NCBI RefSeq assembly: GCF_000003815.2 | Contig: NC_049986.1 | Coordinates: forward strand, 8,343,751 to 8,407,750 | DNA: 64,000 bases | DNA from: Branchiostoma floridae | Taxonomy: Eukaryota > Chordata > Leptocardii > Amphioxiformes > Branchiostomatidae | Direction: 5' to 3' | Part shown: one piece after another, positions 35,001-64,000 of the stretch | How positions within the stretch are numbered: position 1 is the stretch's first letter | How the letters are laid out: each line of letters begins with the position of its first letter | Notes under the pieces: model-generated | What the model was told of the DNA's origin: nothing | Database searches by the model: none | The model's input: the letters and a program-made list of their open reading frames with translations, nothing else | Made by a program: the position numbers and the translations under genes

Positions 35001-36941
35001 GGTTGCAAAGCAATTTGACAACTTCAAATTCTTACATTTTTATGCACCGGTATTTCAAAAATAGAAGCAAACCAATCAAGAAAGCATATTGGTGTGACCT
35101 ATTTGATCCTAACTACTAAGTAACAGTTTGGTTTATGACTCCTCCAGGCATTATGGTTGGGTCACAATGTTGTAGTTTTTAGTTTCTCTATGTTGATACA
35201 CTGTTCTTACACCCTACAGGAAAATATTGGATTGACCCAAATCTGGGCTGTTCCACCGATGCCATAGAGGTCTATTGCAACTTTACATCAGGTGGACAAA
35301 CCTGTGTTAAACCTGCCACACCTGGAAGAGTAAGACGCATCTTTTATCTCTTCTTAATGTGTAATCTTGTATGACAATAGACCAATCCCAAAGCCCCACC
35401 CACCTCCATCAAAACACAAAAATGGCAAATATAATCATAAGATACTTGCAGCCGCTCTCTCATTGGTCAAACCAATAATTGTTGTTCTGTCATTGGTTGA
35501 ACTTCTTACTGTGATTGACAGTCAGGATCTCGGTCTATAAAGCTATGCTGGTAGATATATGCCCCTGTCCTTGGTGCTGAAACTGAGATCTAACAACTTT
35601 TCTATGATAAGAGTTGAATATTGGTCCTCTTTTTGCTCACTATGCATCTAAATTACGATGAGATTTAAAGAAATATTCACATACATCTGTATTATAAAAG
35701 TGTTATAATAATTCTATAAGAATGTCTTTCAATATTGCAGTACCATTAAGGATACAGAAGCTTTAATGTGAAATATTTTGCATGCAGTTCCATATCTACA
35801 TGTAGAAATTAACTGAAAGAAACAAATGTTTGTAACACAAGCAGGGCAGTATCTAAAAAAAAAACACTAGCCACAGCATTTTCTGTAGCTAGATTGTATC
35901 GCATAGAAAATTTACAAAGGCCATGTACATAGTTGAAATTGACCATCAGCCTGTTAAACCTATATTTAGGACTGCCTGCACTGCCATCAACTCAAAATCA
36001 TCACGAACACTCCATTTCCATAAATCACTTCATACTCAAAGGCATTTACAGTAATACCTGTGTAGAGCAAAACGTGGGGTTGTTTTGTCCAATGACAGTT
36101 GTCCCTTTCTTTTCAGTTTAACTTCACCATAGGGAAAGTTCAGATGAACTTCCTGCACTTACTGAGTGCAGAGGCAGCACAAGTTGTCACCGTCCACTGT
36201 AAAAACAGCCCTGTATGGAGAACGCCACACAGAAGTATTCCTGGGGTCAAGTTTAAAACGTGGAGCGGTCCTGTCTACCACTACGGCGGGCCGTTCCAAC
36301 CAGAGGTTTTAGAAGATAATTGTATGGTAAGATCTTCATGCTTGTCTCTTTAAGCCAAGCCAAATGTCAATAATGGCAAGAGTGTGATACAGGAAAAACT
36401 CATGTGAGGACCAAGAAGAACTTTAATCTTAAAGACTCTTGCATTTTAAGTATTCTATTGGACTGCAGGTGGCGCTGTGTTCTACATTGAAATGTATTAC
36501 CCTTGACTTTGTATTGTGAATTGCTTGCAAAATGTACAACTATGACTGAAAAGACACACACAGCCTTAGATTCATTTCTTATTGATGAAAGTCGTTGAGC
36601 GCTCTGTCAACTTGATTCGCCACAGCATTGCCTCCAACGTTAACCATGAATCTTGTTTGATGTTTTGTGAGTAATGTAGTTACTTACTTTTATTCTGATT
36701 ATTTAGGGCAATGTAGTGAGAACAGTTCTATGATTGTTGAATTTCAAATGCACTACTGGTGTATAATTGTTGTATGTTTGTTTGTTCTTTGCAGAAAGAA
36801 GATGGTAAATGGCACAAAACCAGATTACTGTTCACAACAACAGATGTCCACCACCTACCCATCTCAGATGTTGTTATTCCAGAGGACAAAAGACTAGGTC
36901 TCCACTACAGAATAGAAATCAGTCCTGTCTGTTTCATATAG
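3446..36941 (+). CDS. COL27A1-like: Clade C fibrillar procollagen alpha chain (type XXIV/XXVII-like), 5'-partial
   Basis: This is the 3' portion of a fibrillar collagen gene: about 52 exons of Gly-X-Y repeats (listed in the block entries), a telopeptide, a linker and a four-exon COLFI C-propeptide ending in TAG at 36939-36941. Fibrillar procollagens trimerise through the C-propeptide in the ER and assemble into extracellular fibrils after it is removed. The C-propeptide contains [24 protein letters not shown] and [11 protein letters not shown], which closely match my memory of human COL27A1 and fit COL24A1/COL27A1 better than types I, II, III, V or XI. About 905-915 helical residues are visible, against roughly 990-1000 known for this class, so a few helix exons and the N-propeptide lie upstream. 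The helix has short Gly imperfections, which clade C chains also have. All helix exons are phase 0 and start at Gly, as in other fibrillar genes. Which vertebrate paralogue is closer cannot be decided by eye. Confidence 0.93.
3975..5239. mobile_element. CAGGGTTG-TIR DNA transposon, copy 2, split by a nested element
   Basis: It has the same termini as the copy at 554-911, with a perfect 5-bp CATAG duplication (3970-3974 and 5240-5244). A 934-bp TA-flanked element (4258-5191) sits inside it, so its own sequence is 3975-4257 plus 5192-5239. The nesting gives the order of insertion. Confidence 0.8.
4258..5191. mobile_element. Mariner-like non-autonomous element with long TIRs
   Basis: It starts CGAGGGCGGTTCAAAAAGTA and ends with the reverse complement, TACTTTTTGAACCGCCCTCG, flanked by TA (4256-4257 and 5192-5193). 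The inverted repeats continue for roughly 165 bp with scattered mismatches. The TIR style (CGAGGG..TTCAAAAAGT) and the TA target are typical of mariner elements. I see no transposase. Confidence 0.8.
5480..5960. repeat. G-rich degenerate minisatellite
   Basis: This is a purine-rich tract of imperfect units around GTGCCAATGTCAAGAGGGGG, clearest at 5760-5890. The long open frames on the minus strand here are a by-product of the repeat composition and are not called as genes. Confidence 0.6.
6164..6436. repeat. TIR MITE (ACTACAAATAAGTTGGGAC ends)
   Basis: The left end CTAACCAACACTGCAAATAA and right end TTATTTGTAGTGTTAGTTAG are inverted repeats, with subterminal TAAGTTRGGACT. A hairpin at the centre pairs GATGGATGGTGGGCGCAGATGT with the later ACATCCGTGCCCTCCATCCAT region. 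A solo fragment occurs near 53130-53155. Confidence 0.6.
7860..8170. repeat. SINE-like or low-copy repeat fragment
   Basis: It contains the phrase GATAAGTGTGGCGGGTTC followed by TTTAACGTGCC, echoed in diverged form near 128-165. It is non-coding and inside a collagen intron. The family assignment is uncertain. Confidence 0.35.
8960..9400. repeat. Minisatellite, about 20-bp unit
   Basis: This is a tandem array of CACACTTCCATGTACAACCC variants directly upstream of the collagen exon at 9440. It creates open frames on both strands (runs of CTFHVQPY or MYMEVC type) that are not genes. Confidence 0.85.
10110..10410. repeat. Tandem repeat, about 105-bp unit, three copies
   Basis: Three diverged copies of a unit containing AACTATTGGTTAAGACC, then TCCGGTCCACTGGAAAGGG and CCTTAACTATAT, end in a poly-C tract at about 10350-10366. 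It is intronic and non-coding. Confidence 0.7.
11209..12075. mobile_element. TIR DNA transposon (CAGTCAAACCTG ends) containing the first N gap
   Basis: It starts CAGTCAAACCTGCCCAAGAC and ends CTCGGGCAGGTTTGACTG, flanked by TA on both sides (11207-11208 and 12076-12077). The phrase GGTCGCTGAGAAGAG recurs inside. The 459-bp N run (11299-11757) is internal to it. A smaller relative is at 62802-62979. The TA target suggests the Tc1/mariner group; no transposase is visible. Confidence 0.7.
12294..16720 (+). CDS. COL27A1-like: Collagen triple-helix exons, block 2 (10 exons)
   Basis: Exons: 12294-12347, 12676-12729, 12922-12975, 13096-13149, 13839-13883, 14002-14055, 14319-14372, 15136-15189, 16489-16542, 16667-16720. 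All are 54 bp except 13839-13883 (45 bp), all in phase 0 with Gly first, and none has a helix interruption. Introns carry MITEs and a 5'-truncated LINE beginning just after the donor of 15136-15189. The preceding and following N gaps sit in transposon sequence, so no exon need be missing here. Confidence 0.9.
12519..12617. repeat. Hairpin MITE (AGCCTGGAGTCCAGCC)
   Basis: The arms AGCCTGGAGTCCAGCCTTGT and ACAAGGCTGGACTCCAGGCT are inverted repeats around a short spacer. A half copy precedes it near 12470. Relatives lie at 13498-13598 and 38283-38390. Confidence 0.65.
13404..13470. repeat. Hexanucleotide microsatellite (ATACAG)n
   Basis: It is about eleven units of ATACAG, next to the N gap at 13290-13389. 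It is not coding, although it reads as alternating Tyr-Leu or Cys-Ile on the minus strand. Confidence 0.9.
13498..13598. repeat. Hairpin MITE (AGCCTGGAGTCCAGCC), copy 2
   Basis: The arms are GTAGCCAGCAGTCCAGCCTT and AAGGCTGGACTCCAGGCTAC, of the same family as 12519-12617. Confidence 0.6.
14433..14818. mobile_element. hAT-like MITE (TAGCCTGGTTACCAAACC), copy 1
   Basis: The ends TAGCCTGGTTACCAAACCCC and GGGGTTTGGTATCCAGGCTA are inverted. The flanks share GTATGATA on both sides, an 8-bp target duplication as hAT elements make. It is highly similar over its length to 24199-24606 and carries no transposase. Confidence 0.7.
15192..16160 (+). mobile_element. 5'-truncated non-LTR retrotransposon (LINE) 3' end
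   Basis: An uninterrupted frame at 15203-16018 encodes about 270 residues ending in a C-terminal CCHC knuckle (CPFC, then H and C in [10 protein letters not shown]), characteristic of the region after the reverse transcriptase in many LINE ORF2 proteins. The RT catalytic core is absent, as expected of a 5'-truncated insertion. After the stop there is a short 3' UTR, AATAAA at about 16135 and an AT-rich tail of TTATATCTTATATCT type. It lies within a collagen intron on the same strand, its 5' edge a few bases beyond the donor at 15190. The intact frame argues for a young insertion. The clade (CR1, L2, jockey or similar) cannot be fixed without the RT core. Confidence 0.8.
17774..18351 (+). mobile_element. 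Internally deleted mariner transposon, copy 1
   Basis: The termini CGAGGGGCGTTCAATAAGTA and TTGAACGCCCCTCG are flanked by TA (17772-17773 and 18352-18353). The remaining transposase has the N-terminal mariner helix-turn-helix region (from about 17957: [13 protein letters not shown], then [13 protein letters not shown] and PRPGRPS). It then jumps to the C-terminal tail, readable in another frame as [18 protein letters not shown]. The catalytic DD34D core is missing, so it cannot transpose by itself. The copy at 51431-52001 shares the same deletion. Confidence 0.88.
18649..18817. repeat. TIR MITE with 45-bp arms
   Basis: The left arm (AGTTACTCAAGGAACTG, then GTCAGACGTTTCAGAT) pairs with the right arm (ATCTGAAATGTCTGAC, then GTTTGAGTAACT). 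The centre has TCACTGT repeats. It is non-coding and intronic. Confidence 0.6.
18929..22711 (+). CDS. COL27A1-like: Collagen triple-helix exons, block 3 (12 exons)
   Basis: Exons: 18929-18973, 19374-19418, 19592-19645, 20089-20142, 20473-20526, 20876-20929, 21270-21326, 21695-21748, 21885-21938, 22076-22129, 22318-22425, 22658-22711. The exon ending at 19418 is followed by GCAAGT, a GC donor. Exon 21270-21326 is 57 bp and holds an imperfection, [10 protein letters not shown], one residue longer than Gly-X-Y allows. Exon 22076-22129 has Ser (AGT) where Gly is required (GKTSERGRP). Exon 22318-22425 is a 108-bp double exon. All the rest are regular. Confidence 0.9.
22484..22556 (+). repeat. tRNA-derived relic (tRNA-Ala-like)
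   Basis: TAGCTCAATGGTAGAGTGCT matches a tRNA D-arm/A-box. CTCGC and GCGAG form a 5-bp anticodon stem, but the loop is 9 bases, and GGTTCAGTATA is only a damaged B-box. The acceptor stem does not pair. It is probably a SINE head or tRNA pseudogene, not a functional tRNA. Confidence 0.5.
23293..30994 (+). CDS. COL27A1-like: Collagen triple-helix exons, block 4 (18 exons) to the end of the helix
   Basis: Exons: 23293-23346, 23775-23810 (candidate), 24763-24825, 25136-25189, 25384-25437, 26392-26445, 26857-26910, 27221-27274, 27750-27803, 28062-28115, 28417-28524 (108 bp), 28851-28904, 29101-29217 (117 bp), 29758-29775 (18 bp), 30035-30070 (36 bp), 30229-30246 (18 bp), 30378-30395 (18 bp), 30965-30994 (30 bp). 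The exon at 24763 (63 bp) reads GDVIIRGPR, with Ile in a Gly position. The last helix segment is split into tiny exons, including GEKGVK, GAPGPP and GRPGPP. Exon 30965-30994 ends the helix ([10 protein letters not shown]). The 36-bp exon at 23775 lies 33 bp after an N gap and is the least certain. Confidence 0.88.
23933..24060. repeat. GGGTGGGTACC repeat fragment
   Basis: It starts AGGGGTGGGTACTGGTACGG and contains GGACCTGAAAAAATTAG. It is a partial relative of the longer TIR element at 41893-42328 and the fragment at 47466-47598. Confidence 0.5.
24199..24606. mobile_element. hAT-like MITE (TAGCCTGGTTACCAAACC), copy 2
   Basis: This is the same element as 14433-14818, with an extra internal duplication near 24450-24475. 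The flanking GGTTAACA occurs on both sides (24190-24197 and 24607-24614), an 8-bp target duplication. It inserts into a collagen intron. Confidence 0.75.
26109..26273. repeat. Hairpin MITE (CCGGRGCCCAGCCGGG arms)
   Basis: The left arm CCGGAGCCCAGCCGGG ending in AACGAAAA pairs with the right arm TTTTCGTTT ending in CCCGGCTGGGCCCCGG. Its inner part (GTATGATATAAAAGACACC) reappears inverted at 2371-2465. Confidence 0.65.
28286..28338. repeat. (CTCA)n microsatellite
   Basis: About twelve CACT units follow the phrase TTGTGTGTCCTATCACTCAC. The same phrase with three units occurs at about 26691-26720, which suggests a repeat-associated tail. It is intronic. Confidence 0.8.
29250..29521. repeat. TIR repeat (TTCTAGCCGGCAT), copy 1
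   Basis: It starts GGTTCTAGCCGGCATCCGTC and ends ATGCTGGCTAGAATAC, inverted at the tips. It contains TTTCAGATGGTCTAGATTTC, as does the second copy at 32993-33274. It is non-coding. Confidence 0.6.
31350..31566. repeat. MITE family A, copy 2
   Basis: The termini AACGCTGGTTCACCTTAATC and AAAGGTGAATTAGCGTTA form inverted repeats. The interior is itself nearly palindromic (CGTTGTTTTTGAATACAGG mirrored by CCCTGTTTTTAGAAACAATG). Confidence 0.7.
31630..31698 (+). CDS. COL27A1-like: Collagen C-telopeptide/C-propeptide start exon
   Basis: This is a 69-bp phase 0 exon after TTCCTGCAG and before GTAAGG. It encodes 23 residues rich in acidic and hydrophobic positions ([20 protein letters not shown] and DIE). 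It follows the helix-ending exon at 30965 and precedes the globular domain. It has no Gly-X-Y repeat. Confidence 0.8.
32731..32853 (+). CDS. COL27A1-like: Proposed collagen linker exon (Gly/Ser-rich, NLT sequon)
   Basis: An open 123-bp segment lies between TTTACAG and GTGCCT, in phase 0 on both sides, so it fits between exons 31630-31698 and 34098-34230 without disturbing the frame. It reads [17 protein letters not shown], then a charged helix-like stretch with [21 protein letters not shown] is a potential N-glycosylation site. It has no ATG and would be missed by ATG-based scans. Clean splice sites, frame and non-repetitive protein-like content support it. The donor (GTGCCT) is weak, so it may be alternatively spliced. 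Confidence 0.55.
32993..33274. repeat. TIR repeat (TTCTAGSCRGCRT), copy 2
   Basis: It is a diverged copy of 29250-29521, starting GGTTCTAGGCAGCGTCCGTC and ending AAGCTGTCTAAAACGCTG, with the shared internal tract TTTCAGATGGTCTAGATTTC. Confidence 0.6.
33817..34032. repeat. MITE family A, copy 3
   Basis: It starts GTTAGTTCACCTTTATCC and ends GATAAAGGTGAAGTAGTA. The internal GATATTAAGTCGATGAATG block matches the other copies. It sits about 65 bp upstream of the next collagen exon. Confidence 0.7.
34098..34230 (+). CDS. COL27A1-like: Collagen COLFI exon 1
   Basis: A 133-bp exon enters in phase 0 and ends with one base of a split Gly codon. It encodes [19 protein letters not shown], then [11 protein letters not shown] and two cysteines (TCRDLVDC). 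These are the first cysteines of the fibrillar C-propeptide, where the Ca-binding and trimer-forming base of the domain begins. Confidence 0.95.
34305..34830. repeat. tRNA-derived SINE split by a TTAA-flanked MITE
   Basis: The head carries CCAGAGGTCCTGGGTACAAA (B-box-like) and TTATGCCC. The body resumes after the insertion with AGGCACTTTACATGACTTTC and the phrase GACTTTGGTTGGGGAGGT, shared with SINE copies at 46402-46960 and, in part, 58921-59045. Confidence 0.65.
34374..34609. mobile_element. piggyBac-like MITE
   Basis: It is bounded by TTAA on both sides (34370-34373 and 34610-34613). The inverted ends are CCCTTAGACTGCCA and TGGCAGTTTAAGGG, and the internal repeat is CCCGGATATATCC. TTAA targets with CCCTTT-like tips are typical of piggyBac. 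It has no coding capacity. Confidence 0.75.
35220..35329 (+). CDS. COL27A1-like: Collagen COLFI exon 2
   Basis: A 110-bp exon completes the split Gly and encodes [20 protein letters not shown], then NFTSGGQTC, three of the propeptide cysteines. NFT is a potential glycosylation site. YWIDPNLGC is the signature of fibrillar C-propeptides. Confidence 0.96.
36117..36326 (+). CDS. COL27A1-like: Collagen COLFI exon 3
   Basis: A 210-bp exon encodes 70 residues beginning [17 protein letters not shown], with one cysteine at VHCKN and another at DNCM. The donor is GTAAGA. NFT is a second potential sequon in this domain. Confidence 0.96.
36795..36941 (+). CDS. COL27A1-like: Collagen COLFI exon 4 with stop codon
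   Basis: A 147-bp exon encodes [13 protein letters not shown] through [12 protein letters not shown] and then TAG. The terminal Tyr-Arg-(Ile/Leu)-Glu..Pro-(Val/Ala)-Cys-Phe-(Ile/Leu) arrangement is the usual end of clade C chains. With COLFI exons 1-3 the domain has eight cysteines. Confidence 0.96.
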   Translation, partial: KEDGKWHKTRLLFTTTDVHHLPISDVVIPEDKRLGLHYRIEISPVCFI

Positions 36942-40053: not shown

Positions 40054-41220
40054 TTAAAAGAGTCCAGCTTCCCTTTTGGCAGCAACTATCATTTGGAGCA
40101 TGATTTTGGCCTGGGGGCTTCCGTCCCAGCAGACAGGTGTGAGCTGGCCCGTACGAGGATGATGTATCAGAATGGGCCGAACCATGGCTAGAACGGGATG
40201 AATTGGGATTGTGGGGCGAGGAGTGACATTAGGCTGATGCTGGCCAGGAGAGGAGTCGGACTTCTGATGACCGGCGTCGTTCTGGGCAGACGGAGAGCTA
40301 GAGGCGCTGGAAGACTTGGCGGGTGCGGCAGTTCCCTGCTTCTGGGCAGACGGAGAGCTAGAGGCGCTGGAAGCCTTGGCGGGTGCGGCAGTTCCCTGCT
40401 TCTGGGCAGACGGAGAGCTAGAGGCGCTGGAAGCCTTGGCGGGTGCGGCAGTTCCCTGCTTCTGGGCAGACGGAGAGCTAGAGGCGCTGGAAGCCTTGGC
40501 GGGTGCGGCAGTTCCCTGCTTCTGGGCAGACGGAGAGCTAGAGGCGCTGGAAGCCTTGGCGGGTGCGGCAGTTCCCTGCTTCTGGGCAGACGGAGAGCTA
40601 GAGGCGCTGGAAGCCTTGGCGGGTGCGGCAGTTCCCTGCTTCTGGGCAGACGGAGAGCTAGAGGCGCTGGAAGCCTTGGCGGGTGCGGCAGTTCCCTGCT
40701 TCTGGGCAGACGGAGAGCTAGAGGCGCTGGAGGCCTTGGCGGGTGCGGCAGTTCCCTGCTTCTGGGCAGACGGAGAGCTAGAGGCGATGGAGGCCTTGGT
40801 GGGTGCAGCAGTCCCCTGCTTCTGGGTGATGGCCTTCTTATCGGTCTCGGCCATAGCACTGCTCTGGTTCTGCGCAGTGGGGGAAGAGCCGCATTTCTCC
40901 CCGGCCCCAGCAGTGGTCGTCGTTTCTTTCTTGCCCTTGAGACCCAGCAGGAAACCTTTCTTTAGACCTCCAAACGTCGCCTTCTAGCCGGCCTTTTTGG
41001 TGTTACTGCCACTGCCGGGAGACTTTGAAATACTGGATTTGATGTTGACGCCATCATCATGGTTGGAGGGACTTTCATTCAAGTCACTCTGTTTGGTTTC
41101 CTTCTTCACAGCCTCGGGCGGCTTCCTGTGCTCCACAGGTGGCTTCACCTGGGCTGCAGGTGGCTTCACCTGGGCTGCAGGTGGCTTCACCTGGGCTTCA
41201 GGTGGCTTCCCCATCTGCAT
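40054..41220 (-). pseudogene. Low-complexity repeat protein, frame broken by one in-frame TAG
   Basis: One continuous minus-strand frame runs from 41220 to the stop at 40054-40056, interrupted only by TAG at 40986-40984. The upstream part (78 residues) has AQVKPPA repeats of 24 bp and a Lys/Ser-rich tail. The downstream part begins KATFGGLKKGFLLGLKG. It then has nine 20-residue units of the form QKQGTAAPAKASSASSSPSA, seven of them identical, and a conserved-looking C-terminus (HPRTGQLTPVCWDGSPQAK to REAGLF). I do not recognise the family. TAG could be a real nonsense mutation, an assembly error, or the end of a skipped segment, because CTAG/AAGGCG is also a plausible splice acceptor. If so, the downstream 310-codon exon would be joined to an unseen upstream exon. 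TTGATAG just before the first ATG is another possible acceptor. An alternative start is the ATG at 40854. TTTATT at 39553-39558 (AATAAA on this strand) could end it. Confidence 0.5.
40267..40815. repeat. 60-bp tandem repeat, nine units
   Basis: The period is exactly 60 bp, and the central units are identical or nearly so, showing recent expansion. The unit includes GCGGGTGCGGCAGTTCCCTG and is much more GC-rich than its surroundings. Because 60 is a multiple of three, all frames that avoid a stop in one unit stay open in all, which explains several long overlapping open frames. Confidence 0.95.
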
Positions 41221-43331: not shown

Positions 43332-46300
43332 ATGGCGCGACGTGTGAAACGGGTTTTCTTCACACTCGCGTTTTTCCTGGGGGTAAGTTTGACTTCGAGC
43401 GACGATATCAAAGAGACTGAAGCCACTGGAAAGGAAGACGACGGTAGGGTGGAACAAGAAGCTTTAACATGGCCGCCGATAGGGGTGACGCTAGAGGACG
43501 ACCCTTCTCTCTGGCCGGGCCATTTGAAGCCGATAGGGGCGAACGTACCAAACAAGGAAGTAAAAGTCCTGAATGGTTTCCCTCCCCCCGAAGTGTTTCT
43601 CCGTGACTACGCCATCCCGTCCGTCCCTGTCCTGTTTAAGGCAGCCGTGACGGACTCAGTCGCCTTCAAGACGTGGAACTCGGACGAGTATTTCCGACAG
43701 TTTCCGGAAGCGGGCACGCAGAAGCACCTCATTGAGACGAGGAAGAAGGAGATCCGTACACAACCGCCCACTGACATGACCCTGCGACAGTTCCTGGATA
43801 GGTACAGCAAGGAGGACATCTACATGGTAGAGGGAGTACCCAAGTTCTTAAGGTTAGTGTTAGAGATCATCACATGAAGTTTGTTTGTTTCCTACCTGTA
43901 TATCATTTCATGATCATGATACACCAGTCATGTCATACCATAAGCCGTTTCACAGAGATCAGGACGCATGTGCGGCAACAGGAATTCTAGATAAAATAGG
44001 TCAAAGGTAAAGGCACACAAAAATGAAACAAAACCCATCTGGACATTGTTATGCAAATAATGATAAAAAATGGTCGAGACAAGAACTGTTAACTTTTTAT
44101 GAGCCTTACCCTTTGACATATTACCTAGAATTCCTGTCGCCGAACATGCATTCTCACTTCTGTGAAAGGACTTGTCAAGTTAAGTTAAACTGTCTTGTAG
44201 ATGATACTCACTGGCAAAGAATGGAAGGCTGTTTCTTGTGCATATAGAATAAATGAATTGCATCTACACATAAATATGACAATAGAGACTGTTGCCAGAC
44301 TGCCTTGTCCCTTTTGCTTGATCAAATCATATAACCTCCTTGATCAAATCACATGTTACAACATTGTTTTTTTTTGTTTTTTTTCAGGAAAGATGTTCCC
44401 ATGCCCAAGTCTCTCCTGTGTGAACCACTTACCAGGATGCTGGTGGACACGGTAAGGGGGAAAATGTTCTCATTCTAATTTTCACATAATTAAGGAGTTA
44501 TCCATATATAGAATACCCGGTATGTTTCTTTGTGTGGGATATGGTGCAAATCATTGTCTGCAGTTATTGATTCACTTCAAATCACCCGGATGGAGGCCTC
44601 CAGGCGGGGTTCGCTTAAAAGGCTGGGCTGTCTACCAGGCCAGGCTACCTGGCCTGTCTACCTGGCCTGGCTATCACGTCAGGCTACTCAGATCCCCCCA
44701 TTCATAGCCCCATCATGTGGCACTCAGCCCAAATAGCTGATTGACAGGCATAGTAATTGCTAATCTTCAACCCTGTTAGTGCCCTGGGGTTGGCCTGTCC
44801 ACTGGCTGGACCCTTCGGGAATGTATCTGGGAGGCCTTCCTTGCAGCTGTCAGGAACACATTCAAGTACTGTAACGTTACCAGTACTGTGTTCGGTAAAT
44901 GCTTTAGGGTGTTAGACCTAGAAACCAGAGGTCCTGGGTTCAAATCCTTTGACATGTCACAAAATCTGTGCTGTTAACAGTACTTTCCCCACTTCAACTT
45001 GTACAAGGGGTTGGAGAGATTATTGGCAGTGGAAGGAGAGGATTGGGCTCTGTCCTGGACACAAAAATTGTACAGTGGATAACAATCCACAGCCTCAAAA
45101 ATGCTATATGACTACAAGGAGGTACATGTAATTATACCCCCCTTGGTCAGTACAAGTTTAGCTTTACAGTGAGCAAGTGATTTATGCGCTCCCTTCTTGT
45201 TGCACAAGCTGAGATAGTTTCTGTTCTAGAAGATAGATATTCAATAAAGAAACAAATTTCTGTTGTTGGCAAGCCCATTCTTACACACACACACACACAC
45301 ACACACACTTACACACTTACACACCCACAAACATACACAAACACAGTGCTGGTACTTGTGTTCCTGACATGCTGCAAGCAAGGCCTCCCAGACACATTCC
45401 CGAAGGGCCCGGCCAGTGGTGGACAGGGCAACCTTGGGTCACTGGCACTAGCATGGTTGGAGATCAGCAATTACTATGCCTGTCAATCAGCTATTTTGGC
45501 TGAGTGCCATATGATGGGGCTATGAATGGGGGGATCTGAGTAGCCTGGCGTGATAGCCTGGCCAGGTAGACAGGCCAGGTAGCCTGGCCTGGTAGACAGC
45601 CCAGCCTTTTAAGCGAACCCCTCCAGGCGAACCTCTGTCTTGTATCAGCCACACGATAATTACATCATTCACCCTGACAGGAGACCTGTCGCATCCCCGT
45701 CTTGTAATTAGCCAGCGAAAGGGTATGTCGCCCCGTAAGGGGGGGGGGATAACTTTGTCGTGTGTTAGCACATGAAACGATGATGATGATGGTAACAGCC
45801 TAGTGCAAAAGTATCATGTTCATGCTATTAGCTAGGCATACCACATGGTGTCATTTGAACTTTTTCTTAAAATAACACAAAATTGGATGCACTAGACACC
45901 CTTACTCTTGGGAGCAGATCCTCTGACAAGCATGAAATTCTGATTGACCAGGGATGCAACTAGGCCATTTGTGGTCACAGTCTTTTATACTGTGGCCTCT
46001 CTGACAGTAGTTTTGCACCTCAGGATACCTTAGAATGCACCATTTTAACTTAAGATTCTCCCGAACTCTGCACCATGGAAGGTGGATGCCCCTGGAACCC
46101 CCTACAATACCGGTAGTTACGCCTATATCACTTACTAGGACTCACCAAGAAATTTGGACCCCCTATAATAAGATTGTAGCTAAAAGCCTCATCATGTTGT
46201 TTCCCTATGTACAGGTGATGTGGTTCAGTAGTGGTGGCACCAAGTCTGTTCTACACAACGATGACGTGGACAACATCAACTGTCTGTACGATGGGAAGAA

Positions 46301-49300
46301 GGAACTCGTTTTCATCAGTTACCAAAGATACAGAAACAAGGTAGGAGGACATCTAAGAAAACAATTAGGCAAGATTTTCACATTACAACTCTCTGTGTCA
46401 CTGTGGTAGGGTGTTTGGCTCAAAGCCCAGAGGTCCTGGGTTGGAGTTTCCTGATATGCTCGGACGTTGTGCCCTTGGGAAGGGTACCTTTCACGAATTT
46501 CTTACTTTCATTGAAAATGAGTTACAATGTACTTAATAGGGACATCCCTCAGATAGGATGTTAAATGGAGAAGACCTGTGTGCGAGTAGAACCTCACCTT
46601 GAGCATGTATTAGGAGACTCAGTACCAACCTGGGGTGTTATGCCATGTGGCAATCACAAACAAACTCCCTCTTCATTAAAGAAGTGGATTGGAAACTTTG
46701 AGAAGACTGCTTTGTGATATGTCCAATGGCATCATAGAAAGCTTAAAGATACATGTAGTTCTCCCCATGTAAACAATACTAATAGCCAACTTTCCTCACA
46801 GACCTGACTCGGGTATAAATGGGTACCTGACTTTGGTTGGGGAGATAAAGGGGGATGCAAGAAGAGGGATTGGCCCCACCTTGCAATACCATGCCAAAGA
46901 CACAGTTGGTAACAACCCACTGTCCCTATGGCCTCAAAAAGACTAAGGGATTTTAGAGAATAAACTTTGTTTTGTTTCAGGTGACCCTTGACCACCCAGA
47001 AGGCAGCTACTCCAGTATGGATGTTGATGCGGTTGATTTTACCAAATTTCCTGGCATGAGGGAGGTGGAGTATCACCGAGTCAACATGTCTGCCGGGGAC
47101 TGTCTATACATACCCTACCGATGGTAAGTTAAACTACAGTAGATCTTGATGCTTTGGCAGTGGCTTTATATCTGCAGTTTTGGCTGTGACATCTCCGCAG
47201 ACGCCGGAAATATGTCTCCAAAATTCAGTTTCGACCACAAACTTAACTTTCGAAGGGGGGATTTTTGTGTTCTCATTCCAGCTATTCTAATGTGCTGATA
47301 ATCTCAGGCTATAAATTTTCATCATGGTCTCTTGGCTTGTTTGTGGCTTTTTGTTGGTAGAAATTCATTATGTCGATGATACCCACCACTGCCTCTAGCC
47401 TGAGTTAGTGGGCAGGGGACTCCAAAGGAATGGCTCAAGGAGCATTAAATTTTACTGTTGCAAGTAGGGATGGGTACCTGAGTACAGAAAAATTCAGGTA
47501 CAGTTCAATTTATTTAGTCGAGTATTAAGCCCCCACTGGCATTTTAGAATCCTGTCTTCATGTAGTAAACTCATCATGGTACCCACCCCCAATTGTAGCC
47601 AAATCTAATCATGTTTCTATACAGACCGCCTAACATTGCTGGCCTCTGCAGCTCAGACAGCAGAGTTTGTGTTACATAGACTACTCAAGTTGCAAGTGTA
47701 ATGAAGGAGCAGTTTATCAGCCGAAGTAATGTATTCTTAATTTCATCTCCTATAACTCCACTGTAGGTTCCATCAGGTGAACTCTTACGGCCGTAACATC
47801 GCGGTGAACGTGTGGTGGGAGCACAACCTCAGGCAGTACGTGGAGGCACTGTCCGAAGGCTGCGGGGACCTGGCAGAAGACTCGACCCTCAACGACTTTC
47901 AAATTGAGCCGCCTTCAGATTCCTCAGAACAAGGACCACTGTAGGTTTACAGAGTCCCTTTATCTTCACACCCTATGTATCTTGTCATCCTTGTACAATT
48001 TATGCGACTGTAAGGCAATATTGTGATATTGATCGAATTATTTAACCAATTTGGAGAAACAAGATAGATCTATACATTGGGAATAATCCTTTTTTTTTTG
48101 TTGAGAAATGAAAATGGCTACGAAACCTGAGTATACAAACTGTTTTTATTGAAATTGCAGACAATGCAATCATACTGTTGAGTATACTGTTGACTGTATC
48201 AATTTTGTAAAACATCAACATAACATTACATCATACCTATCATCTTGGAATTTCATCATGAAAAATTAAGTAGGTTTCTTTTCATCCCTCAGGATGGAGT
48301 TACATAGTGCTTTAAATGCCATCAAAGACAAGGCAGTAACCCTGGAGGAGTTTGAGGCCATAGTCAAGAAGGTAAGACAAGCCGCAGTACTGCATACCTC
48401 CAACTTTTTATTTTCATGACTTTTCATTGCATCGTTTGCCAAAAACAAGAACACAAAAACAAGAGGTTTACGTTATACTTTGTATGGCAACTTTTGTTTC
48501 TTGAAATTCTGGTTGTTGCATGCACACCTTGGGGGCCCATATTGTTGATTTTTGTTGTTAATTTATGGTCTCATTCCCACTAATCCAGTGGAAAATTTGC
48601 CCCTAGCAACAGACCACTGTGACATATGCCATAGTGTGTCACATTTATCCTGAGCTTTCTCTGTAGTCTTTAAGAATCAGTTCCTTTCTTGTTTCTTGCA
48701 ATTCTGTTTTTTGTGTGCATAATTTGACATACAATTTATGGTATCATTCTCTACATCCCCGGGCCCCCCACAGGACAAATTGCTCACAGAACTGATCACT
48801 TGGACACCAAAATGCAGCTATGCTGTTAAAGAGGTAGGTGGCACTTGAAAAGACGTTTTGATTACATCGGACAATAACTTGTAATGCTGAAACTTTTAGA
48901 GGCGAGTAGAAAGAGTCTCCTGGCTCCCAAACCTGCATCAAACCCGGGCCACCATCTCACAAACCAAATGCCTTAAAAAACTTAAAAACCACTATGCCAA
49001 AAGGTTGGACACTTGGGCATTGAGCTTGAACCCTGCTGTTACGGTGCAAAGTTAAATTTGTTGTCTCTCTGTAGTGGTGCATACCTAAAGCCCGGACTTA
49101 GAATTGGACCTAAAAATGTTTAGGTCCAAGTCCAAAAAAAACCTAAATTAGTCCGGACTTGCAAAAAGCTATCTGTCCCTTATATTCCCTTTTCTTGTTC
49201 TAAACCATCTAAAACCTTCCATAGACAGTGAAATTTGCACTGGAAAAAGCCAAAAACATTTTGTGTTTACACTGGCTTTATATAATTTGCATGTATTTTT

Positions 49301-52198
49301 ATCATTGCATTTCAGTTCATGCTAACAGTCAATTTTATATGCATCATCCCCCCTCCCCCTCAAAAAAGAAAACTTTCTATCGCACATAATATGCAATGAT
49401 GGGTTCAGGTCCTAACTTAAAGTCCGGACCTGAACGTGAACTGCTGGACCTGAATTCAGACCTGAACCTGAAATTGAGTTTAGGTACGCACCACTATCTC
49501 TACTTGTCTGTTATTACATGTAGTTGTTGACTTGTTGAATTTTTCTGTTGAATAGATGTTTGAGGCGATTGACAGGAACAAAGACTCTGTGCTCTCACAA
49601 GAGGACTTGGAGGGTCTCACAGATGAGGTAAGTATTCAACTTAATTAAGTGTTAACTACCAATGAAGGGACTGAAACTTAGCAATTAATTTGCCAAGTTT
49701 TGTTGCCCTTAAGTTTTTGGAAATATTATTTTACAAAGTTCAAAGTATATTATATAATTATCAATTATCTTTATAGATAAGCCTCCTTCACAGACTTTGA
49801 GCAGACTAGCTGTTATTTTAGGGGGAGGGGGCGGCTGTTTTACTACTTTCAATGTAGAAGGTTCTGTAATCCCGGGAAATGGAGTTTGCTGAGGAAGGGG
49901 ATTTGCGTAGAAAAGTAGTTTGCCGTGGAAGGGAGTTGGGCAAAACTTCCAAGTCGGCAAAGGAGGCTACAGTATATCAGTCACTGCACATACACAGATA
50001 GAATCATGAATACTCTTACAGGTATGAGATAAACGTGTTTGTTTTTTCAGATGGAGGAGGAGCTAGATGAAGTGCTCATGGAGAATATGGATGACATAAT
50101 GAACATTAAAAACGACCAAGTAGCACAGCTGAGAGAGGTAAAATCTTTTACCATCGGCCCTTCATTCTAACAGCAGATGCAGGGGTGCCTATTAAAAACC
50201 CTATGAGATTCGCACGAATATTATGTGATACGCACGAATCACTATGCGAAAACGCACGAACCTTATGATAATCACACGAATCACTATGCGAAAATGTACA
50301 AATCTTATGTGATTCACACAAATTACTATGTGACACACAAGAACCTTATGCGATTTGCACGAACCTTATGCGAAACCGACCAACCGCCGCCAGATCACAT
50401 GACATCACGTCATTCGCATAAGGTTCGTGCAAATCACATAAGGTTCGTACGTTTTCGCATAGTGATTGGTGTACTTTTCGTAAGGTTCGTGCGTTTTCGC
50501 ATAGTGATTCGTGTGTATCACATAATGTTCGTACGAATCTCATAGGGTTTGTGCAAATGCTTAGGCACCCCTGAGATGGGGATTGTCTGATAATCTGCAT
50601 GTTTTCGTTTTAGTATTAAGATATAGCGTATTTCAGTGCTACGTTATTGCTGTGTCTGCTGCCATGGTGGTGGCCCTGTTTGCATTTCATTGAATCGTAC
50701 ATAATATACTTGGACATTCTTTAAACATTAAATGTCAAAAGTGTCCCTTTGAAAGGGTCAAGAGATATTTTTGAATAGATCTGATATTTCTAAAGTTAAA
50801 TGTCTCTTGACCCTCTCAAAGGACAAGTCAACGTACGGAAGAATTCTTTAAATGTAAAACACAAAAAGTTGTATGTGCTTGAGCTAAAATGCAAATATGA
50901 ACACCAACACATCAGTTCTTGCTCCTGTGAAAGCACATATACTCTTCTTCAAACTGATAAGCCTTATAGATATTAAGCTTTTTGGACAGGACAAAAAGTG
51001 CAAAGACTTTTATTGTGGTCAAAATGAGAGTGAGATGATATCAAGAGCAGTTGCATGTGGGTTAGTTACAACAAAAGTTCTGGTACAACTCAACCAAAAG
51101 CAAGGGAAAAAAACGCTAACTTAAAGGAATATAAGCAACTGATATTTTGTGTGTGCCAAGGACAGGACGAGTAAAGTTAGTTGGTTAGTAAAACACGTTT
51201 CAATTCACATGTAATGCTGGTTCACCTTTATCCGAAGGTGACTTATATTTGTTGTTTGTAAAAAAACATATTTAGGGATATGAAGTCGGCAGATGGTGGT
51301 TTCATATCGGAACATTTTGAAAATATTGCAAATTTGATACTCCTAAACGTGCTGTTTTTAAAGACAACAGATAAAGGTCACCCCATGGATAAAGGTGAAC
51401 TAGCGTTATGTATATACAAGAAAATGTGTACGATGGGCGTTCAAGAAGTAATCCACCTGACCCACTTCCACTTGTCTGATCTAGATGAAATTTTGCATAT
51501 GTAATGATTCATATCTCTATGGGTTATGTTGCAAAAAACAGCTCTGAACTAATTTTGGTTTTTGATTTAAAGGTGTTTGAACTGAGTCAGGTGTGAAATG
51601 GACCAGGTGTGAAATGGAGCCAGTTGAGTGTCGCGCAGTGATCCGGTTTTTGTATTTGAAAGGACGCATACCAAATGAGACTTTTGATGAAATAAAAGAA
51701 ACTTATGGTGATGATTCCCCATCATATGACCTTGTAAAACGCTGGCATTGTGAATTCAAACATGGCCGGAAGTCTGTGGAAACAGCTCCCAGACCTGGTC
51801 TTCTGCCATTGATGAGGCATCTGTTGGAGGACCAACCTGGGGTGTCCTACAAAAACGGTGTACAGAGCTGCATCAAACGATGGTAGAAATGCATAACTCT
51901 GGGTGATTCCTATGAAGAGAAAGACTAATAACTGCACCAAGTTTCATTAATCTCCTGCTTTGGGAAATGGGTCAGGTGGATTACTTCTTGAACGCCCCTC
52001 GTAATATAGCTTAAATCATTGAACACTGGTGAATGTTTTAATTTGTTGTTGTTGAACCTCCAGGCTGTCGCAGCAGAGGTGGCAAAGGGACAGGCAGAGA
52101 GTTATGTAGAACTGGTGAAGAAGCTGCTTGATGAAGGAAGAACCACCATAGGAGACTCTGATGAGGTGATAGGAGAACATGGTCACCAGGAGCTGTGA
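43332..52198 (+). CDS. Secretory-pathway JmjC/cupin-like oxygenase with EF-hand and HQEL tail
   Basis: Ten exons: 43332-43852, 44388-44451, 46215-46340, 46981-47123, 47767-47940, 48293-48371, 48774-48833, 49556-49627, 50051-50137, 52064-52198. They join in frame to 486 residues plus TGA. I start at the ATG at 43332 (MARRVKRVFFTLAFFLG), because this gives an immediate signal peptide. The JmjC/cupin-8-like domain spans roughly residues 70-315. It shows an HxD iron motif in VLHNDDVDN and a distal His in YRWFHQVNSYGRN, followed by NVWWEH. Residues about 345-410 hold a degenerate and then a canonical EF-hand loop (DRNKDSVLSQED). The C-terminus is acidic and helical and ends HQEL, a KDEL-like signal. 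Known JmjC/cupin-8 enzymes are Fe(II)/2-oxoglutarate hydroxylases or demethylases. Signal peptide plus HQEL imply an ER-lumenal enzyme. The substrate is unknown and I do not assign an orthologue. Confidence 0.9.
44599..44870. repeat. Left arm of a large inverted repeat
   Basis: It is about 270 bp, including GGGTTCGCTTAAAAGGCTGG and AGGCCAGGCTACCTGGCC, and is repeated inverted at 45358-45632. The two arms flank about 490 bp with a SINE fragment and a CA repeat. They are either long TIRs of one element or two opposed copies of one repeat. Confidence 0.7.
44900..45120. repeat. SINE fragment
   Basis: It contains CCAGAGGTCCTGGGTTCAAA (B-box) and a degraded body ending in GATAACAATCCACAGCCTC. It is related to copies at 34305-34830, 46402-46960 and 58921-59045. 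Confidence 0.5.
45282..45345. repeat. (CA)n microsatellite
   Basis: A perfect CA run at 45282-45309 is followed by imperfect ACAC units. It is intronic. Confidence 0.85.
45358..45632. repeat. Right arm of a large inverted repeat
   Basis: It is the reverse complement of 44599-44870. Matching tracts include GGCCTCCCAGACACATTCCC, TGCCTGTCAATCAGCTATTT and CCAGCCTTTTAAGCGAACCC. Confidence 0.7.
46402..46960. repeat. tRNA-derived SINE interrupted by about 280 bp
   Basis: The head has CCAGAGGTCCTGGGTTGGAG and TTGTGCCCTTGGGAAGG. The body resumes at about 46790 with CTTTCCTCACAGACC and GGGTACCTGACTTTGGTTGG. The intervening piece is unrelated to the SINE. It ends just before the exon at 46981. Confidence 0.6.
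47466..47598. repeat. GGGTGGGTACC repeat fragment
   Basis: Its tips are TAGGGATGGGTACCTGAGTA and CATGGTACCCACCCCCAA. It is a short member of the family at 41893-42328. Confidence 0.5.
49073..49495. repeat. TIR element (AGTGGTGCATACCTAAA)
   Basis: The termini AGTGGTGCATACCTAAA and TTTAGGTACGCACCACT are inverted. The interior repeats GGTCCGGACCTGAACC-like phrases on both strands. It is non-coding, in an intron of the JmjC gene. Confidence 0.7.
50180..50573. mobile_element. Nearly palindromic MITE (CAGGGGTGCCT ends)
   Basis: The tips CAGGGGTGCCT and AGGCACCCCTG are inverted. Each half is built of tandem CGCACGAACCTTATGCGAAA-type units, so the whole 394 bp can fold into one long hairpin. It lies in the last-but-one intron of the JmjC gene, about 40 bp after a donor. 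Confidence 0.8.
50755..50830. repeat. Short hairpin repeat
   Basis: CCTTTGAAAGGGTCAAGAGA is mirrored by TCTCTTGACCCTCTCAAAGG, separated by about 35 bp. It is intronic. Confidence 0.6.
51212..51408. repeat. MITE family A, copy 4
   Basis: The termini TAATGCTGGTTCACCTTTAT and AAAGGTGAACTAGCGTTA are inverted. It lies immediately before the second mariner copy. Confidence 0.7.
51431..52001 (+). mobile_element. Internally deleted mariner transposon, copy 2
   Basis: It is flanked by TA (51429-51430 and 52002-52003), with ends CGATGGGCGTTCAAGAAGTA and CTTGAACGCCCCTCG. The N-terminal helix-turn-helix region (from about 51614) is joined to the same C-terminal remnant as in copy 1, with the core missing. 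A further small deletion after PRPG shifts the frame so that the tail reads [12 protein letters not shown] and then stops. It ends about 60 bp before the final exon of the JmjC gene. Confidence 0.88.
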
Positions 52199-54114: not shown

Positions 54115-55995
54115 TCACAGTTGTTCATTTGCATGAAGTCTCATGATATGCTTGGTTAGGTGGGACCTCCGAGATACCCTGTATCCACACTCATCACACA
54201 TGTAGGGCTGAACTCCAGTGTGGTGTTTTAGATGATACTTCAACGAGAGTTTTGTTGCTGCAGAAAAATTACACTGGTCACACTTGTAGGGTTTTTCCCC
54301 AGTATGTGTTCTCAGATGTACATACAAAATATGCTTGCTAGTTGTCCTGTGTCCACATTCCCCACACATGTAGGGTTTCTCTCCAGTGTGTTTTGCTAGG
54401 TGGCTGTTTAATTTGCCTTTCTGCACAGTAGAATAGTCACATTGGTCACACTTGAAAGGTTTCTTCTCTCTAGCGTGTTTTGCTAGATGGCTGTTGAAAT
54501 TGCCTTTCCGTACAGTAGAAAAATCACACTGGTCACACTTGAAGAGTGTTTTAACGACATGAGTTCTCATGTGTACAGTTAATTGAGACTTTCCATATGC
54601 CCTGAAGCCACACTTGTCGCACAGGTAGCGTTTCTGTCCAGTGTGGTTGGACATATGGATGCGAAGTGCAGATTTAGTTGCTGCAGTATAATCACACTGG
54701 TCACACTTGAAGGGTTTTTCACGAGTATGTTTTCTCATATGTGAAGTTAGGGCAGACTTTTGAGTTGCCCTGTACCCACACTCCCCACACATGTAGGGCT
54801 TCTCTCCACTGTGTAATACTAGATGGCTGTCCAACGTAGATTTCTTTGCTGCAGAATAGTCGCACTGGTCACACTTATAGGGTCTTTCACCGGTATGTAC
54901 TTTCATGTGATGAGTTAAATGACCTTTTCGATGTGTCCGGTAACCACACTCCCCGCACATGTAGGGTTTCTCACCCGTGTGTTTTGCAAGATGGCTGATT
55001 AAATTGGCTCTCTGCGCAGCAGAATAATCACACTGGTCACACTTGTAGGGTTTTACACCAGTATGATTTCTCATATGTATGGATAAGCCAGATTTCCGGG
55101 CTGCCCTGAACCCACACTCCCCACACATGTAGGGTTTCTCTCCAGCGTGTTTTTTTGCTAGATGGATGCGCAGTGCAGATTCCCTTGCTGCAGAATAGTC
55201 ACACTGGTCACACTTATATGTGTGCTTTGCTAGATGGCTGTCCAAGCTGCGTTTTCGTCTTGCAGAATAGTCACACAGGTTACACTTGTATTCTCCGGTA
55301 TGCACTATTTCCATATGTTGGGATAAGAGAGACTTTTCATGTGTCCTGAACCTACACTCCCCACACTTGTAGGGTTTTTCACCGGTGTGCGTTGCTAGGT
55401 GGTTGTCCAAGTTGTATTTTCGTTTTGCAGAATAGTCACACTGATCACACTTGTAGAGTGTGTCTTTGGTATGACTTCTCATATGTTGGGATAAGAAAGT
55501 CTTAAAGTTTGTCCTGAAGCTGCAATGCCCACACACATAGGATTTCTCACAATCATGGCTGTTCAATTTGCCTTTCTGTGCAGTAGAATAATCACACTGG
55601 TCACACTTGTAGGGCTTTTCACCAGTATGATACCTCATATGTACAGATAAGGAATTCTCGTCCGTTGTTCTATACCCGCATTCCACACAAACGAAGGGTT
55701 TCTCTCCCATGTGTTTTGCTCGATCACATTTTTGAAGCTTTTCACCTGTATGAGTAATAGGATAATTATGATCAGATAAGTGAGGTACTTCAGTTGTCAT
55801 ATATTCATACTTCCCACAGGTGCATGGTTTCTCATCGGTATGTTGTTCTGGCTGATGACAAGAACTAGTTATGCTTGCAGTGGGCTGGTCTTTGGCATTG
55901 CTTGCATCCCTGTCCCGTAAAACTCCAGTGGGGGACTCATCATCACAGAAGTTCTGAGAAACTGCAGTAGGAGACCCATGACCTTCCTCTGCCAT
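54115..55995 (-). CDS. Poly-C2H2 zinc finger protein (about 19 fingers)
   Basis: A single uninterrupted exon encodes 626 residues, starting MAEEGHGSPTAVSQNF. About 19 C2H2 fingers run from residue about 100 to the end, mostly joined by TGEKPY-type linkers. It is a likely sequence-specific DNA-binding nuclear protein. The fingers alternate between two types, CGECGYR and CDQCDYS, which points to growth by duplication of a two-finger unit. Irregularities: finger 2 (CDQCDYSTAQKGKLNSH) runs directly into DCEKSYVC and lacks its second His, and the linkers around residues 250-270 are shortened (HLAKHTYKC, VHTGEYKC). A degenerate Cys/His segment precedes finger 1. There is no KRAB, SCAN or BTB domain at the N-terminus. 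TTTACTTAG just upstream of the ATG is a likely acceptor for a 5' non-coding exon. Such arrays are strongly expanded in lancelets, and I cannot name an orthologue. Confidence 0.9.
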   Translation of the reverse strand: MAEEGHGSPTAVSQNFCDDESPTGVLRDRDASNAKDQPTASITSSCHQPEQHTDEKPCTCGKYEYMTTEVPHLSDHNYPITHTGEKLQKCDRAKHMGEKPFVCVECGYRTTDENSLSVHMRYHTGEKPYKCDQCDYSTAQKGKLNSHDCEKSYVCGHCSFRTNFKTFLSQHMRSHTKDTLYKCDQCDYSAKRKYNLDNHLATHTGEKPYKCGECRFRTHEKSLLSQHMEIVHTGEYKCNLCDYSARRKRSLDSHLAKHTYKCDQCDYSAARESALRIHLAKKHAGEKPYMCGECGFRAARKSGLSIHMRNHTGVKPYKCDQCDYSAAQRANLISHLAKHTGEKPYMCGECGYRTHRKGHLTHHMKVHTGERPYKCDQCDYSAAKKSTLDSHLVLHSGEKPYMCGECGYRATQKSALTSHMRKHTREKPFKCDQCDYTAATKSALRIHMSNHTGQKRYLCDKCGFRAYGKSQLTVHMRTHVVKTLFKCDQCDFSTVRKGNFNSHLAKHAREKKPFKCDQCDYSTVQKGKLNSHLAKHTGEKPYMCGECGHRTTSKHILYVHLRTHTGEKPYKCDQCNFSAATKLSLKYHLKHHTGVQPYMCDECGYRVSRRSHLTKHIMRLHANEQL

Positions 55996-56310
55996 GTCTA
56001 AGTAAAAACTCCTTGTTCTAACCTAAAGTACGAAAGATTAGACAAGATGAGACACATGAATGAAAAATATGACTAGTCACGAGTGCAATATTCTCGACTA
56101 GATACATTTAACATAATGATTATGACTCATAATCATAATATGAGGTCATTTAGATGCAGGATTTCCAAAGCAATAACCTGATGCACACAGCACACTTTCA
56201 CACACACTTGGGTCTCTGTGGACTTAACAGAGTAACACTAATGGCTACTAATACTAATAGCAATCTATCAAATTATCTACATACATGTAAATATATATAC
56301 TTTTATGAGC

Positions 56311-62979: not shown

Positions 62980-63189
62980 TATTTGCATGACAATGCCTAG
63001 ATGTGTTTTGTTTATGTCTTTAGGGGCCTTCACCCTTGACATATTTCTGTCGCTGTTGCTGTGTAGTCAGAAGTGTGAACAAGCTTATAAAGAGCTTATT
63101 TTCCACATGTTTGACAGAAGAGACTACTAATCTTTATATGGAATTTAGAGTTACATCATACCAGGTAAAATCCAATAGCTCTTTTTTTA

Positions 63190-64000
63190 CATGTACAATG
63201 CGCGTATCAAATTACATGATGGTCTGTGAACCAACTCGTAATGTGGGGCAAACTTCGAACACCCTGGATCTGTTTCTCACCACAAATTCCACCTTAGTGG
63301 AGAGAGTCAAAATCTTACCAGGTCTCAGCGATCATGACATCCCGCTGATTGATGTTCAAGTAAAGCCCCAAACATCAAACTCAAAAGATCGGCTCATATA
63401 CCTGTGGAGGAAAGCTAACATCGATGCACTCCAGCAGGATATGGCAACATACAGTCGAGAGTTTGCAGACCAGGCTCAGCACAACACTGCCTCAGAAAAC
63501 TGGGAGCTGTTTAAGGCAGCCGTTAGTGGTGCTGCCAATAAGCATGTCCCCAGGAAAAAAGTGAGGCCACAATCCAACAAACCTTGGATAACTCCCCAGA
63601 TTCGCAAAGCTATGCGTAAGCGGTCTGAACTTTTTTCCAAGGCTAGGAGATCCAACTCCAATGAAGCCTGGGCAAAGTTCAAGAGGTGTAGGAAGGGCGT
63701 TAAGCAGAGAGTTAGGAAGGCCCATAGGGATTATGTCTCCAATTACCTGGAGTCTAACATCGAGGATAATCCCAAGGCCTTTTGGAGCTATGTCAAATCC
63801 ATCAGACAAGACTCTACTGGTGCGTCCGCCCTAAGACATCAGGGGGTGCTAACATCTGACCCCAAAGAAAAGGCTGATGCACTGGGGGCCCAGTTTGAGT
63901 CAGTGTTTACCAGGGAGGATAAGACCACCGTTCCTACCCTTGGCGAACCCAAAGCTCCAACTATCCCCTCCCTTAACATCACAGTGGAGGGGGTAGCCAA
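63190..64000 (+). mobile_element. Non-LTR retrotransposon ORF2 fragment (endonuclease end and linker), runs off the window
   Basis: An open frame, in frame with ATG at 63216, runs to the window edge without a stop. It starts MVCEPTRNVGQTSNTLDLF, includes LPGLSDHDIPL (the SDHD motif of apurinic-endonuclease-like LINE nucleases), and continues into the basic linker with KPWITPQIRKAMRKRSELF and ENPKAFWSYVKSIR-like residues that precede the reverse transcriptase. The N-terminal half of the endonuclease is missing. The intact frame suggests a young insertion. The type is CR1/L2/jockey-like. It may lie inside the 5' intron of the TMEM141-like gene, on the opposite strand. Confidence 0.88.

Follow-up and report, generated by a model that had tools for sequence, protein, structure and literature searches.

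A ten-exon gene of Branchiostoma floridae was found to encode a 486-residue cupin/JmjC protein that is likely to be a competent Fe(II)- and 2-oxoglutarate (2OG)-dependent oxygenase, placed in the lumen of the endoplasmic reticulum (ER) by a signal peptide and a C-terminal HQEL and hydroxylating basic side chains. The gene lies on the plus strand of the window, by which is meant the whole stretch of 64,000 nucleotides analysed (G000:C8:8343751-8407750). Its start codon begins exactly at 43332 and its stop codon ends exactly at 52198; all nine introns have GT donors and AG acceptors with phases in frame, and the donor of exon 1 is GTTAGT. The parts of the gene, in window coordinates, are as follows.

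43332..43852, plus strand: exon 1, residues 1-173, with the start codon, signal-like N-terminus, linker, GHLKPIG motif and N-terminal part of the cupin
43332..43400, plus strand: predicted N-terminal signal peptide, residues ~1-23, by sequence and hydropathy
44388..44451, plus strand: exon 2, residues 174-195, holding C185; of equal length in the C9 paralogue
46215..46340, plus strand: exon 3, residues 196-237, with W198, S206, H209-N-D211, N215, C218 and K224 (the 2OG lysine)
46254..46262, plus strand: codons of the HND iron-binding motif (H209, D211)
46981..47123, plus strand: exon 4, residues 238-284, with the sequon N272-M-S and C278
47767..47940, plus strand: exon 5, residues 285-342, with the distal iron ligand H287 (codon 47771-47773) and the end of the cupin domain
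48293..48371, plus strand: exon 6, where the C-terminal EF-hand-like region begins
48774..48833, plus strand: exon 7
49556..49627, plus strand: exon 8, EF-hand
49571..49606, plus strand: EF-hand loop DRNKDSVLSQED, residues 395-406
50051..50137, plus strand: exon 9
52064..52198, plus strand: exon 10, coding for the C-terminal tail with HQEL, followed by the TGA stop
52184..52195, plus strand: C-terminal HQEL, a retrieval-type tetrapeptide

The exon edges were reproduced by our own spliced aligner when fed the 486-residue protein, which is a self-check only and not independent. Independent support for the ten-exon model comes from exon lengths in the nearest paralogue, on contig C9 (L039; 55% identity, repeat tail excluded), which has the same ten-exon layout: exons 2-9 measure 64, 126, 143, 174, 79, 60, 72 and 87 bases in the window gene and 64, 126, 143, 180, 79, 60, 72 and 87 in the paralogue, exon 5 alone differing. 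The original prediction would have been weakened by a different C-terminal exon; the last exon of the C9 paralogue (1260 bases long, containing many repeats of the DDASKSKVSKETK type) likewise ends in HQEL, this exon having been placed first by alignment and its HQEL first noticed in a scan for KDEL-type stops. On the matching exon lengths and the shared HQEL end, an artefact in the gene model or the HQEL exon was rejected, and the architecture of signal-like N-terminus, HxD...H iron site, EF-hand-like region and HQEL is confirmed, with an EF-hand that scores below threshold. In the C9 gene (G000:C9:14828500-14838400, minus strand) the last exon, at 8587-9846 of the reverse complement, carries a long lysine/serine/aspartate repeat tail before HQEL. 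Inside intron 9 of the window gene, ahead of the HQEL exon, a fragment at 51581-51886 (plus strand) was recognised by eye as similar to a mariner-type transposase in its N-terminal domain.

Relatives were sought in the gene's own genome (513 Mb, 431 contigs), where the window protein gave 54 matches at E up to 1, mostly single exons. Fourteen related loci, the window gene included, were modelled, the paralogues with our own spliced aligner, and all have HxD...H and the 2OG lysine; C11 L037, C306, two more C12 copies and L052 (C1:1.23 Mb) are outside this set. Only seven C-termini were counted, because five of the 14 models end before the EF-hand region and those on C18 and C19 are without a confirmed stop. 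Alignment A1 was made without the five short models and the C9 repeat tail, and A2 holds the same nine members. For L040, the two final introns were set manually once its frames had been read; the L043 model as used leaves out its Met, situated immediately upstream of the model, and the L045 model starts inside its open frame. Three loci (L011, L012 and L013, on contigs C3, C4 and C1) each consist of one open frame with a hydrophobic start, their ends being KRDEL, PRDEL and HDEL, and are possibly functional retrogenes. In L043 (G000:C2:3421500-3431400) the exon with the HxD iron site is tandemly duplicated, at 4808-4977 and 5408-5577 (LHNDGADN and LHFDAVDN), and the two copies are candidate mutually exclusive exons. 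Outside the animal genome, one search of viral contigs gave 18 pattern matches, none of them a relative, and another gave no pattern match; 19 pattern matches in bacterial and archaeal genomes likewise included no relative.

The catalytic core was identified by Pfam as Cupin_8 over residues 86-305 (E 2.6e-32, 113.2 bits against a cut-off of 27.4), and the JmjC model PF02373 matched below its cut-off (22.3 against 24 bits). In a phmmer search of the PDB the window protein matched human JMJD5 first (1.7e-12), then C2orf60 (TYW5), JMJD7 and FIH; a profile of nine members, run against the PDB, gave JMJD5 at 9.2e-33, JMJD7 at 6e-24, C2orf60 at 1e-21 and FIH at 1.2e-12. The iron and 2OG surroundings of human JMJD5 are described in the available text of its structural report as H321/D323/H400, N327, K336, Y272, S318 and W310, with the substrate arginine held by E238 and Y243 (PMC5862942). 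In the phmmer alignment, with JMJD5 residue numbers assigned by counting from H321, the first eight of these fall on H209/D211/H287, N215, K224, Y164, S206 and W198 of the window protein, whose iron site is H209-N-D211...H287. By alignment, the 2OG pocket (K224, Y164, S206, N215) matches that of JMJD5.

All eight residues are invariant in the nine aligned members, and across the 14 loci H209, D211, H287, K224 and Y164 are kept in every one, S206 and W198 in 12 and N215 in 11. Loss of the iron ligands in close orthologues had been named beforehand as grounds for refutation; among the modelled paralogous loci of this genome no such loss was seen. The coding sequence is under purifying selection, with Nei-Gojobori dN/dS against the C9 paralogue of 0.134 in the cupin and 0.40 in the EF region, at an overall dS of ~1.4, which is near saturation. 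These data bear on the reading that the protein works in the lumen by binding and not by catalysis, as a JmjC pseudo-enzyme or a folding factor. Such a role has been proposed for JMJD8 of the ER lumen, in protein folding and complex assembly, in the accessible part of its description (PMC5684140), and has a precedent there; here, however, none of the 14 loci lacks H209, D211, H287 or K224, and constraint is stronger on the cupin core than on the tail. Because binding alone would require neither the kept iron and 2OG residues nor the constraint on the core, this reading is disfavoured and we regard it as unlikely.

The substrate pocket differs from that of JMJD5. The equivalent of E238, placed by eye at E135, is acidic in 13 of the 14 loci (Val in the C9 paralogue), and that of Y243, placed by eye at E140, is Glu in 12, Asp in one and Trp in one. 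The acid at the E238 position suggests a basic substrate side chain, though not the exact specificity of JMJD5: with Y243 replaced by an acid in this by-eye alignment, the arginine specificity of JMJD5 is not simply transferable.

Descent was examined with IQ-TREE on a midpoint-rooted tree with nine outgroup rows, two of them half empty, and with several weak deeper forks. The 14 loci fell together on the same side of a branch with 99/96 support, separate from JMJD5, from rows presumably FIH-like and JMJD7-like, and from four other JmjC loci; human JMJD5 paired at 100/99 with L007 of the same Branchiostoma genome, a locus named JMJD5 by alignment to the human domain. A provisional human JMJD8 sequence scored 16 bits against the family profile, the weakest of nine non-family sequences, and took a long branch of unsure place. 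That the window gene is a JMJD5 family member relocated to the ER is a reading we consider improbable: JMJD5 is its best solved relative and 12 of the 14 loci keep the counterpart of S318, but the genome has a JMJD5 of its own on the human branch and the 14 loci share another. A plain JMJD5 orthologue was rejected by the tree, and Y243 of the arginine pocket is also replaced.

Compartment was read from the two ends of the protein. The window N-terminus runs MARRVKR and then VFFTLAFFLGV (mean hydropathy 2.54 over 11 residues), and all 14 loci have a hydrophobic N-terminus, with 11-residue peaks of 1.85 to 3.30, hydropathy being the one measure applied. At the other end the window protein closes with HGHQEL. 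The seven modelled C-termini are HQEL (two), RDEL (two), HDEL, HDDL (L040) and HDEF (L043), which makes five KDEL-type ends and two near variants. The PROSITE-type pattern for ER retrieval is [KRHQSA][DENQ]EL, and the chance of such an ending from composition is ~5e-4. In the available text of a structural study (PMC8248988), R169 of the KDEL receptor makes the contact with Asp at -3; HQEL has Gln at this position, so its retrieval strength is uncertain, and no paper joining HQEL, KDEL and endoplasmic reticulum was found in the literature searched. Three cysteines are kept (C185 in 14 of 14 loci, C218 in 13 and C278 in 12), a pattern compatible with an oxidising lumen. With hydrophobic N-termini in every locus and KDEL-type or near-variant C-termini, predicted residence in the ER lumen is the best reading, and the lumenal type of oxygenase originally proposed is supported by signal-like and retrieval-type ends, which its paralogues in this genome share.

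The C-terminal region is less clear-cut. EF-hand models of Pfam matched residues 386-427 (EF-hand_7, E 8.5e-4; EF-hand_1, E 2.2e-3), with scores below the curated cut-offs (20.1 against 30 and 17.9 against 25.4). In the loop, D-R-N-K-D-S-V-L-S-Q-E-D, positions 1, 3, 5 and 12 supply oxygen ligands; Ser stands at 6 and Asp at 12, where EF-hand loops usually have Gly and Glu. The earlier description of its ligands as good holds for the side chains at 1, 3, 5 and 12 and is slightly generous given Ser for Gly and Asp for Glu. Against the PDB the window C-terminal region alone reached E 0.044 with the EF-hand protein GCAP1. A C-terminal profile of the nine members gave hippocalcin at 2.7e-8 and calmodulins at ~1e-6 as whole sequences, E-values that sum repeated weak matches within each EF-hand protein (single hippocalcin matches were of 14.8 and 13.5 bits, i-Evalues 0.24 and 0.58), and names of EF-hand calcium-binding proteins occurred in 58 of the best 60 of 553 matches at E up to 1. 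EF-hand_7 was matched at E up to 0.01 by six of the nine members; L040 alone passed the EF-hand_5 cut-off (26.2 against 25.9 bits), and L043 gave no EF-hand match in Pfam at E up to 0.1. Loops of canonical appearance occur in three other members (for example DTNGDGQLSVEE), and that of the C9 paralogue is strongly altered (DDSGNFVFDYDD).

Because of the family-profile matches and the three canonical-looking loops, we take the EF-hand domain of the family as real in ancestry, and calcium binding by the window copy as putative. The EF-hand called in the original prediction thus survives as a region that recurs in paralogues, in a form that is sub-threshold in Pfam here and under looser constraint than the cupin (dN/dS 0.40 against 0.13). 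A calcium-free structural remnant in an ER JmjC hydroxylase that works without calcium control has somewhat short of an even chance: the sub-threshold matches, the dN/dS of the region, the single clear loop and the altered C9 loop speak for it, and the persistence of ligands at 1, 3, 5 and 12, the canonical-looking loops of three other members and the one member above the EF-hand_5 cut-off speak against it.

The reading preferred, that of an active ER oxygenase, can be set out as a sequence of steps. The signal peptide would take the JmjC oxygenase into the secretory pathway and HQEL would return it to the ER. There H209, D211 and H287 would bind iron, and K224, Y164, S206 and N215 would bind 2OG in the manner of JMJD5. 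Hydroxylation of side chains, probably those of a Lys or an Arg, would be the most likely reaction, with freshly synthesised membrane or secreted proteins as substrates, and the EF-hand-type module may provide substrate docking or calcium dependence, a role suggested for the EF domain of P4H-TM. The ER residence, activity, substrate class and calcium role of the window protein we infer from its sequence.

Known systems share parts of this arrangement. To our knowledge JMJD5/KDM8 is without signal peptide, EF-hand or KDEL-type end, JMJD8 is shorter and without EF-hand or KDEL-type end, and the ER FKBPs are without an oxygenase domain. JMJD8 has HxH in place of HxD, and the ER FKBPs are prolyl isomerases with EF-hands. 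JMJD5, an arginyl C-3 hydroxylase, is like the window protein in its cupin/JmjC core and its iron and 2OG ligands (S318, a distinctive one, among them), as far as the consulted text describes them (PMC5862942), and differs in Y243, which the window protein has not kept, and in its separate branch of the tree. JMJD8, with which the signal-like N-terminus of the window protein may be compared, is a JmjC protein with a signal peptide, reported in the ER lumen; the text available, from 2017, presents it as the first of the JmjC proteins found there (PMC5684140). P4H-TM, from the portion of its report at hand, is an ER 2OG oxygenase whose EF domain lies beside the active site and has calcium affinity in the ER range (PMC7948501); it is a transmembrane prolyl 4-hydroxylase with the EF domain inserted within the catalytic domain, whereas that of the window protein is C-terminal. 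AspH is an ER 2OG oxygenase with predicted EF-hand motifs (PMC6817910, in part); it differs in its membrane anchor and TPR domain and in having only two protein iron ligands (PMC4543633, in part). Retrieval signals of the HDEL and HEEL type are recorded for FKBPs in the excerpted text of PMC8248988.

No fusion of JmjC with an EF-hand, in connection with the ER, KDEL, hydroxylases or amphioxus, was found in the literature searched, which was covered partly by titles and the starts of abstracts. A JmjC-only hydroxylase type with ER termini and an EF-hand tail is therefore new with respect to that literature. The Branchiostoma floridae genome has a gene group in which catalytic residues are kept and which combines an EF-hand-type tail with ER-type ends. 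Should its products be active, they would form a new class of ER hydroxylase and a testable source of unrecognised modifications on secreted and matrix proteins, with a possible link to ER calcium as suggested for P4H-TM in the accessible text (PMC7948501). More speculatively, and we consider this possible rather than probable, some animals may have a group of calcium-tuned ER JmjC hydroxylases (at least 14 loci here) by which basic residues in secreted and matrix proteins would receive a modification not yet described. Such a group would parallel the collagen hydroxylases on a JmjC basis, with one member exchanging its iron-site exon by alternative splicing.

A collagen gene lies on the same (plus) strand as the JmjC gene, with triple-helix exons from 3.7 to 30 kb of the window and COLFI matches at 34101-36335, 7.0 kb before the JmjC start codon. 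Genome-wide, COLFI matches occurred at five places (C16:7.45 Mb; the unplaced contig C264; C8:13.57, 13.73 and 8.38 Mb), counts that are lower bounds and map fibrillar collagens only. In this search no COLFI match was found less than 0.8 Mb from the other 13 modelled loci (C264 being unplaced). The neighbourhood pointed out originally is correct as to strand, and as a hint of function it is not supported: since the other 13 loci were not found near COLFI, position is no evidence of function. The genome-wide search rejects a collagen link by position, and the adjacency is probably a coincidence. A collagen-modifying enzyme whose substrate is its genomic neighbour deserves hardly any weight, even with a same-strand collagen gene ~7 kb upstream and with collagens hydroxylated in the ER (PMC4543633, text seen in part), as one of 14 loci is near COLFI, the next nearest being ~0.8 Mb away, and no collagen prolyl or lysyl hydroxylase domain was among the 10 Pfam families matched at E up to 1.

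Other open frames of the window were noted. Between the collagen and JmjC genes, 40057-40983 (minus strand) is a 309-residue frame with QKQGTAAPAKASSASSSPSA-like repeats. Directly downstream of the JmjC gene, 54118-56022 (minus strand) is a 635-residue frame with C2H2 zinc fingers; 59280-60551 (plus strand) is a 424-residue frame encoding C2H2-like fingers and perhaps a FLYWCH-type region; and 63024-63998 (plus strand) is a 325-residue frame resembling part of a non-LTR retroelement, these last three as judged by eye.
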